Source of the DNA: Candidatus Woesearchaeota archaeon
Lineage (GTDB): Archaea > Nanobdellota > Nanobdellia > Woesearchaeales > JABGXB01
DNA: 64,000 nt
Assembly (NCBI GenBank): GCA_018675975.1
Contig: JABGXB010000002.1
Span: 442,098 to 506,097 of the forward strand
Direction of reading: 5' to 3'
Position 1 is the first letter of the stretch; every line of letters begins with the position of its first letter. A program made the translations under genes and the position numbers. Under the pieces are notes generated by a model. It was not told the DNA's origin. It saw only the letters and a program-made list of their open reading frames with translations, and searched no databases. Of the stretch, positions 31,417 through 34,571 are shown piece after piece.

Positions 31417-31453
31417 TATAAAATTATATAAATGAATTTAGTTGATTAACTGT

Positions 31454-32044
31454 ATGTATATTTTTAATTCAAATTATAAATTTTCACAATTACATTTTAG
31501 AAGTTTGGGGTCTGAGAATATAGAAAAAAAAATATCTGTAATATCGGATGTTTCTTGGCTTAATATTTTTGGAGATAGTTTTAATGGATTAGATTATTTT
31601 GCAAATCGTGAACGAAGTTCATATGATTTAAATGAATTTGAAAATCATAAAGGTGAGAGTTGTGGTTTGGGCGATGTTATTATTTCTCCTTTTAAAACTG
31701 ATTTACCTGATTTATCTTTAAAATTAACTACTAGAGAAACAGAGAGTTTTGATTTTAAAATATCTTATTTGGATTATAGAAAATTATTATTTTTTAGTGA
31801 TTCAAACGTTCTTTTGGATTTAGTTTTAAAGCCAGTAATTTCTTATATTTTTCAAAATGATGTTTTAGCAGTTTTGTATGATAGAAGAGTGGAACTGTTG
31901 AATAAGTTGGATAAACTTGAATTGGGTTTTAAAGAGACAGAGAAAATTAATAATTTTGAATCATCTTCGGAGTATTGGATTAGGGATTTATCATCAAAAT
32001 CTTTTATTAGATGTGGTGGGGATAAACCATTTAATGATTTTTAA
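31454..32044 (+). CDS. Hypothetical protein
   Basis: The 196 residues have no signal peptide or membrane helix; mixed alpha/beta composition with two Cys near each other only by chance. The ATG at 31454 is chosen because TTATATAAAT lies about 27 nt upstream; an in-frame TTG at 31442 would be too close to it. Not recognised. Confidence 0.5.
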   Translation: MYIFNSNYKFSQLHFRSLGSENIEKKISVISDVSWLNIFGDSFNGLDYFANRERSSYDLNEFENHKGESCGLGDVIISPFKTDLPDLSLKLTTRETESFDFKISYLDYRKLLFFSDSNVLLDLVLKPVISYIFQNDVLAVLYDRRVELLNKLDKLELGFKETEKINNFESSSEYWIRDLSSKSFIRCGGDKPFNDF

Positions 32045-32141: not shown

Positions 32142-34571
32142 ATGGTAAATATTCAATTTGTTCCTTATGATTCTTTTACTAAAGTAATTGATAATAAAAC
32201 TTGTTTTTTTATTACTGCTAAAACTTTAGATAGAAAAAGATTGATTTTAAATATTGATATGAACCCTTATTTTTTTTTATGTGTGAATGATGAACATATG
32301 AATTCTTTTGAGAATTTAATTCTTCCTAATTTAAAAAAGTTTAGTCAAATTATTGATGGTATTGAATTTAATATTGTAGATGTTAAAAAAACAGATTTTA
32401 AAAATAATTGTGGTGTTAATTATACTACTTTTAAAATTGAGATTAATAGGTTATTAAAATTAAATAAATTTTCTAATTTAATTTTAGATTATTTAAAAGA
32501 TAAGGGTGTTGATTCTTCTATTATTTTTGAAAATATTAAATTAAAAGATATTATTTTTAATGAAAAGAATATAATTCCTTTTAAATTATATGAAGGTGAT
32601 TGTGAAGTTATAGATGATTTGAAATTTAAATTATTTAGATGTGATTTTGTTTTAAATTTAAAAAATTGTGATTTAATTAGAAACTTAGATAATTCTGAAA
32701 TTGATTATGCAATTAATATTTTATATTTAGATTTTGTTTTTAAAAATGCAACGATTTTTGATCAAAATAATCCTTTATTATTAATTTCTTGTCATATAAG
32801 AAAGTTTACAAAAATTTTTCAATGGAAAATTCCAAATTTAAAAAATTGTGATTTTTGTGAAAGTGAGAGTAATATGTTTGAACAATTTTCTGATTTTTTA
32901 AATAAAATTAAACCGGATATTATAATAATAAATGATAATGATAATAAATTAAATTTATTTAATAATAGAAGTGATCGATATGGACAAAAATATTCTTTTT
33001 ATTATGATTTAAATGATTCGAATTTTAAAATAAATAATAAAAAAGGTTTAATTTTATTGGATTCTAAACGATTTCATAATAAGTTGCATTTATTTTCAAA
33101 TGTGAATTATAAAAATTTATATTATAAATTTTTTAGGGTGAAGTTTGACCCAATTTCAAAAGAATATATTTCTTCTATGTTATTGAATAAACGTGATGAA
33201 AATATTTTTTATATTATTGAGGAAAATAATAAATCTCATTATAATTTTTTTATTAATTTTTATTTGCAAATAGTAAAGGATTTGTGTGAGGAAATTTTAT
33301 GTGGTTTAGATTTTTTATCATTTTCGGATAGGGGTACTATTTTAAAATATTATCTAAATAATAAATATAGGCAAAATAAATATATTTTAAATAATTTAAA
33401 TGTTATTGCTGATTCAGATAATTTATTTTATGATTTTGCTCAAAAGAATGGAATTAAAAATAATTTGTTTCAATTGGATTTGTCATTTATTTACTCAAAA
33501 TTAATTGCTGATAATAATATTTCTTTTAATAATGATAATAATATATCTTTAAATAAAATAATTTTGGACAATTTATTTAATGATATTAAAACAATATATA
33601 GTGATGAATTTAGTACTTTTTTATTTTCAAATGCGATGTCATCTTTTTTTAATTTAAAATTTGAAACCTTTAACTATGGGCGTCCAATTTTTTTTAAATA
33701 TTTAACGAAATTATTTTTATATAATAATGTTGGTAAATTTATTTATTCTTTAATTGAGGATAAAGATGAATTTGATTGTGCTTTAATTGATTTTATAAGG
33801 ACTTTTTTGAGTAAAATTTCAGGTTCAAATTTTGAATTGATTTCTTTTAATAAAACGTTAATGTATTTACAAAACTCATCTTTGATTGAATTAAATGAAT
33901 CGGCCAAGGATACTTATTTAAAATTAAATGAATTTTTATTGGATATTTCTATTTTATTAAAGGAAATAAATATAATACATTTATTTTGTAATTTTAATTT
34001 TTTTATAACTAATTATATTTTTGATAATAATCGTATTTTTGGATTGGATTTTGATTTACTTCTTTATGGAAATATTAAAAAAAATATTAAAATTCTTGAG
34101 GTGATAAATAAACGAATTGCTTTTATTTTATTGGATTATGATTATTATAATGAAATAAACAGTTATTTTAATAATATGGATTTTTATAAGGAACATAATT
34201 TTTCTATTGATTTTAAAAAATCTGAGAAATTAAATTCGATCAATTTTTATAAAAATACGATTTTGACTCAAATGAATAATAATAAAATTGATTTTAATTT
34301 ATTATTGTCTAAAAGAAAAATTAATATGTCTTCTTCGGATTTTTTAATTGATTTTAAAAATAATAAGTTGTCAGATTTTTATGATGGCGAGTCTATAATT
34401 TATTTAGTTATGTTTGAAAAAACTGAAACTGGTTTGATTAGTAAAAAAATAATAATTAATGATCCTTTTGAATTTAAAGAAAAATTAAATCCTAATTATA
34501 ATATTAATATTCATTATTATTATATTATTGTAAATAAATATTTTGATTCAGTTATCAATTTATTAAAATAA
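32142..34571 (+). CDS. Highly diverged family-B DNA polymerase-like protein
   Basis: The 809 residues follow PolB order. The exonuclease region has YLDFVFKN (D197, but Val for the Glu of DIE) and PDIIIINDNDNKLN (258-271, the Exo II place but lacking Asp). The linker has CEEILCGLDFLSFSDRGTI. Motif A is LDLSFIYSKLI with D446. The motif B place is SNAMSSFFN (496-504), where K-x3-N-S-x-Y-G should be, followed by GR (513-514). Motif C is GLDFDL with D636 and D638. Next come NKRIAF for KKRYA and LLSKRK plus a HYYYIIVNKYF end as in the thumb. Proofreading is probably lost and synthesis doubtful. Similar inactivated PolB paralogs are known in archaea. Confidence 0.7.
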   Translation: MVNIQFVPYDSFTKVIDNKTCFFITAKTLDRKRLILNIDMNPYFFLCVNDEHMNSFENLILPNLKKFSQIIDGIEFNIVDVKKTDFKNNCGVNYTTFKIEINRLLKLNKFSNLILDYLKDKGVDSSIIFENIKLKDIIFNEKNIIPFKLYEGDCEVIDDLKFKLFRCDFVLNLKNCDLIRNLDNSEIDYAINILYLDFVFKNATIFDQNNPLLLISCHIRKFTKIFQWKIPNLKNCDFCESESNMFEQFSDFLNKIKPDIIIINDNDNKLNLFNNRSDRYGQKYSFYYDLNDSNFKINNKKGLILLDSKRFHNKLHLFSNVNYKNLYYKFFRVKFDPISKEYISSMLLNKRDENIFYIIEENNKSHYNFFINFYLQIVKDLCEEILCGLDFLSFSDRGTILKYYLNNKYRQNKYILNNLNVIADSDNLFYDFAQKNGIKNNLFQLDLSFIYSKLIADNNISFNNDNNISLNKIILDNLFNDIKTIYSDEFSTFLFSNAMSSFFNLKFETFNYGRPIFFKYLTKLFLYNNVGKFIYSLIEDKDEFDCALIDFIRTFLSKISGSNFELISFNKTLMYLQNSSLIELNESAKDTYLKLNEFLLDISILLKEINIIHLFCNFNFFITNYIFDNNRIFGLDFDLLLYGNIKKNIKILEVINKRIAFILLDYDYYNEINSYFNNMDFYKEHNFSIDFKKSEKLNSINFYKNTILTQMNNNKIDFNLLLSKRKINMSSSDFLIDFKNNKLSDFYDGESIIYLVMFEKTETGLISKKIIINDPFEFKEKLNPNYNINIHYYYIIVNKYFDSVINLLK

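Follow-up and report, generated by a model that had tools for sequence, protein, structure and literature searches.

An open reading frame (ORF) in the window, by which we mean the whole 64,000-nucleotide stretch of a Candidatus Woesearchaeota genome analysed here, encodes what is, to judge from its sequence, a strongly diverged and apparently inactivated relative of the archaeal family-B DNA polymerase PolB3. It is the most degraded broken PolB3 copy seen in this study. In 193 genomes of the same order, losses in the PolB3 palm are confined to those that also encode a bacterial-type polymerase. Our preferred reading, which we hold to be probable though far from certain, is that the native PolB3, in the presence of a polymerase of the bacterial Pol II type, lost catalysis and has been retained in a non-catalytic role.

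The ORF (Table 1) is a single frame of 809 amino acids with an ATG start and no internal stop codon. With its base composition, stops would make up about 10% of random codons, which gives a probability of ~1e-39 for an open run of 809 codons, and the remaining five frames of the interval contain 43 to 180 stops. Its composition is strongly AT-driven, with GC content still ordered by codon position (0.23/0.18/0.11), and the protein is presumably made. Single-sequence phmmer searches gave weak matches to Thermococcales PolB (E 0.005), and BLAST against PolB3-type ORFs of the same order gave E values down to 5e-14 over the first ~300 residues. In profile-profile comparison, a PolB3-type profile of 26 related proteins (three of them broken) aligned with residues 1-464 (probability 98.5%, E 2.3e-15), in agreement with the family-B assignment made in an earlier note on this DNA, and residues 465-809 had no significant profile match by themselves. 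The profile of the Pol II-type group (B7) reached a probability of 9.6% over 36 columns. As the matches are to PolB3 and not to the Pol II type, the 809-residue protein is PolB3-derived, and as it is closest to PolB3 but has lost the catalytic motifs, we refer to it as a PolB3 derivative and not as a PolB3 enzyme. Pfam (no family at E values up to 10), NCBIfam, PHROGs and single-sequence PDB searches did not place it firmly; an NCBIfam dioxygenase match (E 0.0098, 49 residues) was judged to be due to chance, and viral contigs scanned with the protein yielded no relative. A recent duplication of the intact PolB of this genome was ruled out, the two not being close (the 9.6% above). Intact relatives do exist, which the earlier note had thought might expose a sequence error, but divergence extends along the whole length of an open frame and similar losses recur in other genomes, and sequence error was likewise ruled out.

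Table 1. Coordinates in the window of the PolB3-like gene and of the motif remnants in its product
Feature	Position	Strand	Evidence
Inactivated PolB3-like protein (predicted), 809 aa	32142..34571	+	ORF, BLAST, alignments, profile match
Best-preserved region, aa 1-310: N-terminal domain and exonuclease fold	32142..33071	+	pLDDT mostly 70-92; retained columns
Exo I remnant LDFVF, aa 196-200, with Asp197 but without the Glu	32727..32741	+	alignments
Exo II remnant, aa 259-272; Asp lost	32916..32957	+	alignments
Motif A remnant around D446, aa 443-455	33468..33506	+	alignments, model, profile match
Motif C, best placement, ISFNKTLM, aa 567-574; N570, T572	33840..33863	+	alignments, model; not significant alone
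GLDFDLL, aa 634-640; earlier taken for motif C; aligns with GAKKKYAL	34041..34061	+	alignment, model
Remnant of the thumb tail, YNINIHYYYIIVNKYF, aa 786-801; corresponds to YDxxYYINNQ and is not followed by a PCNA-box-like tail	34497..34544	+	alignments

PolB motifs are named and placed here by what we take to be standard usage. Alignments indicate that half of Exo I is kept, with the Glu replaced by V199, and that the Asp residues of Exo II and Exo III are both lost; the Exo II region reads IIIINDNDN and has no B7-type GW(N) signature. The exonuclease had been called ruined in the earlier note, which is correct for all but Asp197. In motif A, the D446 singled out earlier aligns with the Asp of DFRSLYP in both the alignments and the profile match, the SLYP having changed, and in a structure model it closes a strand (437-446) ahead of a helix (448-457), which confirms it as the motif A residue. 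Motif B was reported as gone; its N-S-x-Y-G is indeed lost, while the Lys is present in one alignment and absent in another. MAFFT places SNFELISFNKTLMYL on GFxVLYSDTDSxFL, such that the motif C site YSDTDSxF is replaced and N570 and T572 occupy both Asp positions. The same register is favoured by hhalign, not significantly (E 0.17), and a profile test of the placement over residues 530-700 found no register significant; the model has a strand-turn-strand at this site (565-571, 579-583). D636 and D638 had been proposed as the motif C acids, and this proposal falls, as their segment aligns with the thumb start and lies in a stretch modelled with a pLDDT of about 24-38. Near the C-terminus, HYYYIIVNKYF does align with a conserved thumb motif (MAFFT), as its thumb-like appearance had suggested. 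The loss of the polymerase and exonuclease motifs is well supported by these alignments.

A rearranged active site might in principle still sustain error-prone or template-independent synthesis, and archaeal PolB2, judged inactive from its sequence (PMC7544198) and later described as active in damage tolerance (PMC11791011), offers a precedent. D446 is compatible with such activity, but in the best alignment neither motif C position bears an acid, motif B and the Exo motifs are lost and the genome has an intact PolB, which leaves an active enzyme very unlikely. The terminal-transferase-like or translesion activity envisaged in the earlier note gains no support from these losses, and its description of the protein as an intermediate keeping the acids of motifs A and C does not hold, both motif C acids being gone. 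Such intermediates do occur elsewhere: in the PolB3 of genome G033, from the same order, the Asp of motif A and the Asp-x-Asp of motif C are still present, whereas motif B and the Asp of Exo II have disappeared.

The model of the window protein has a mean pLDDT of 59, being mostly 70-92 over residues 1-310, poor over 465-809 and very low at 607-694. It places D446 as expected for motif A and puts D636 and D638 in a low-confidence stretch. The best Foldseek matches were PolBs (E 5e-23), with TM-scores to the query of 0.47-0.61 among the 50 matches listed, and a VIA comparison with 5mdn gave a Z of 27 and an rmsd of 6.2 over 649 residues; because active PolB3 rows in the input alignment shaped the fold, these matches are weak evidence for a PolB fold. 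The broken copy of another genome (G150) has a predicted full PolB fold (pLDDT 87) and matched PolB3 crystal structures over its length. Conserved non-catalytic columns were counted per domain, using borders in L059 numbering set by hand from what we take to be the Pfu domain borders. The window protein keeps 11/22 of these in the N-terminal domain, 18/46 in the exonuclease, 6/25 and 7/33 in the two palm parts and 7/39 in the thumb, which leaves only 18-24% of those in the palm and thumb. Averaged over the broken copies, retention is lowest in the fingers (0.43) and the second palm part (0.40) and higher in the N-terminal domain (0.63), exonuclease (0.58) and thumb (0.56).

The source genome (1.03 Mb in three contigs, rated 100% complete) contains a single PolB above the Pfam cut-off, a protein of 942 residues with intact motifs (Exo I DIET, motif A DFKSLYP, motif C YGDTDS), whose nearest PDB entry is Escherichia coli Pol II (307 bits, compared to 164 bits for the best archaeal entry). 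It fits group B7 by these sequence features, a group described from Woesearchaeota and Pacearchaeota and nested in bacterial Pol II in the section of Kazlauskas et al. (2020, PMC7544198) that treats it. The large subunit of PolD was also found. The earlier note had asked whether a second, intact PolB or PolD is encoded, and both are present; together with the motif losses this agrees with its suggestion of an inactivated, perhaps structural, PolB. The intact B7 gene is adjoined by an ORF consisting largely of EEGSEGSD-like repeats (L003:6675-7022).

PolB3 genes were scored at 12 catalytic positions in the 193 genomes, and the B7 list was taken from a score table in which B7 and PolB3 were told apart by score. 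B7 is present in 85 genomes, PolB3 without B7 in 95, and neither was found in 13; most are draft assemblies, and absences can thus be gaps. In genomes without B7, the Asp of motif A, the Lys and Gly of motif B and the two Asp residues of motif C are kept in every PolB3 scorable in the palm (94/94 of the 95, a truncated gene in G153 being set aside). In genomes with B7, PolB3 was not found in 69/85 and found in 16. Eight of the latter, spread over seven families, have a broken palm (G000, the window's genome, G071, G044, G033, G150, G077, G124 and G146), the ORF of G146 ending early at 572 residues; four are intact (G004, G013, G014 and G094), two (G102 and G072) lack the Exo II Asp and are not fully covered in the palm, and one, G002, has a PolB3 piece with motif C. 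In the remaining genome (G063, locus L072), also with B7, PolB3 is exonuclease-dead with an intact palm, the Exo I Asp being replaced by Arg and the Exo III Asp lost. Leaving out G102, G072 and the G002 fragment, palms are broken or intact in 8 and 5 genomes with B7, as against 0 and 94 without (Fisher p 4e-9, with kinship ignored). Two further broken copies lie outside the census, in G202 and in G201, and everything indicates that G201 and G193 are one genome.

Several other features of these genes were noted in passing. The G002 piece (L191, G002:C61) is a C-terminal fragment directly upstream of the B7 gene, on the same strand and at a contig end. One PolB3 gene (L102:4878-8756) has an intein inside motif C, and two B7 genes (L176 and L177, in G192 and G135) have intein insertions, in all three cases with Pfam intein splicing and LAGLIDADG domains. 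In G100 (C69, C45) and G137 (C49, C80), B7 matches are split over contigs near the intein point of G135 and G192, which reflects either breaks between contigs or genes with split inteins. Yet another type of PolB (~680-880 residues), matching the PolB3 profile mainly in the palm and thumb, is encoded in G193 (L195), G041 (L194), G062:C8, G116:C4, G028:C53 and G026:C37.

What the broken copies retain bears on whether PolB3 is simply decaying after B7 took over, with the window copy as a functionless late stage. The absence of PolB3 from most B7 genomes indicates that the protein is dispensable for most B7-bearing lineages and is in keeping with decay, as is the early end of the G146 ORF. The window copy is also the most diverged in the tree, with an end branch of 6.4 changes per site, and is AT-driven. 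Broken copies from other genomes mostly retain the PHVAVA and YDxxYY motifs of the thumb; a four-cysteine CxCC...C motif found in 77/96 active PolB3 rows is kept in 10 of the 11 broken rows that cover it, the window protein being the exception, and a QxxLxx[FY] tail is kept, by eye, in eight of ten complete broken ends, being missing from the window protein and G071. We call this tail PCNA-box-like on the pattern that we assume for such boxes. Against decay, the 809 codons of the window copy are open at a composition where one random codon in ten is a stop, and its GC content is ordered by codon position. In the genus of G150 (g126) a full-length broken copy is kept in all three species, where seven other genomes of its family gave only B7-level or weaker matches. 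These three copies are 34-44% identical with dN of 0.52-0.69, and dS is at least 2.6 for two of the pairs and could not be computed for the other; the comparison points to purifying selection on the g126 copies, with dS saturated. The source genome is the only one of its family in the set, and the window copy thus has no close relative for such a test. On this balance we consider decay without function a rather unlikely account, and retention as a non-catalytic factor remains the reading that we prefer. AU tests did not reject one clade of dead copies (p-AU 0.455 and 0.824) on quick trees without bootstrap and with long branches; the inactivated copies may belong to a single ancient clade, though the long branches leave us unsure of this.

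Broken copies in G102 and G146 adjoin a class I tRNA synthetase, which we take to be IleRS, and the same cluster occurs at 10 of 15 active loci examined. The G193 copy lies beside a NYN-domain gene that also flanks active loci, and at the broken G071 locus there are an L16p/L10e ribosomal gene and an MscS-type gene, both of which also occur at the intact locus of G013. These neighbours shared with active loci place several broken genes at the native PolB3 site. The window copy has none of them, and no relevant cluster in common with the loci compared. Upstream of it are a PPDK-type gene and a 200-residue orphan ORF, and RNase PH-type, exosome, SBDS and proteasome genes are convergent to it. 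The orphan ORF (31442-32044 of the window), just upstream on the same strand, has no Pfam or PHROGs match.

The window protein resembles the PolB3 of Pyrococcus and Thermococcus (B3) in ancestry and length, in the domain order of its model and in the Asp of motif A, and differs in having neither the exonuclease and polymerase active sites nor the PCNA-box-like tail. Membership of PolB2 (Dpo2, B2), a known archaeal group with disrupted motifs, would account for the disruption of both the exonuclease and the polymerase motifs in a genome with a second PolB. However, the best matches are to PolB3 of the same order, the comparison with PolB2 being one of motif and neighbourhood features; PolB2 keeps one motif C Asp and adjoins iRadA and PPB2 genes (PMC4104785, PMC7544198, PMC11791011), whereas the window protein has no motif C Asp (by a placement not significant alone) and no RadA-family gene among ten neighbouring ORFs searched with Pfam. 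We regard PolB2 membership as highly improbable. Nor does the window protein belong to B7, which resembles instead the genome's intact PolB, given its low profile probability and lack of the Exo II signature. The C-terminal half of Pol epsilon, an inactive PolB module with a non-catalytic role in the account of PMC7544198, likewise pairs a dead module with an active PolB; here the dead module is a separate, PolB3-derived gene and its active counterpart resembles bacterial Pol II. No match to DUF1744, the inactive part of Pol epsilon, was found in the window protein with Pfam at E values up to 10, and the broken G146 copy (L190:3052-4767) has a weak match below the cut-off (20.7 vs 27 bits). 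That B7 and dead PolB3 make up a two-gene polymerase in the Woesearchaeota-like group, dead PolB3 being its DNA- and clamp-holding subunit and the pair a separately evolved counterpart of the active and inactive halves of Pol epsilon, is an extension that we find doubtful. Disrupted PolBs were already known as PolB2 and in Pol epsilon, and a search of the open-access literature, with subscription papers and preprints outside it, yielded no description of an inactivated PolB3 from this group, and such a protein appears to be unreported.

Under our preferred reading, of PolB3 kept as a non-catalytic factor, B-family DNA synthesis would be carried by the one intact B7 PolB, besides PolD. With the Pol II-type enzyme present PolB3 catalysis would have become dispensable, and the loss of PolB3 would then have followed acquisition of that enzyme, an order of events that we infer. 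The native PolB3 would have lost proofreading and polymerisation with its full-length frame kept, and some lineages may have retained the dead protein to hold DNA and/or other replication or repair proteins, the partner in other genomes probably being the PCNA clamp, bound via the kept binding-motif-like tail. The same pairing of B7 with dead PolB3 in several related archaea argues that the broken enzyme is probably kept for a non-copying job. Such a binding role is least supported for the window copy; with the clamp tail and four cysteines gone and the N-terminal and exonuclease-fold half best kept, any remaining contact would most likely be made via that half. Inactive polymerases retained in replication machines are already known from Pol epsilon, and the change from enzyme to scaffold is hard to watch. 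These related genomes show what would be several of its stages, namely intact PolB3, exonuclease-dead PolB3, loss of motif B, loss of all motifs and no gene found, and among the 193 genomes the losses occur only with the bacterial-type polymerase, which makes the order of loss and the parts retained directly testable.
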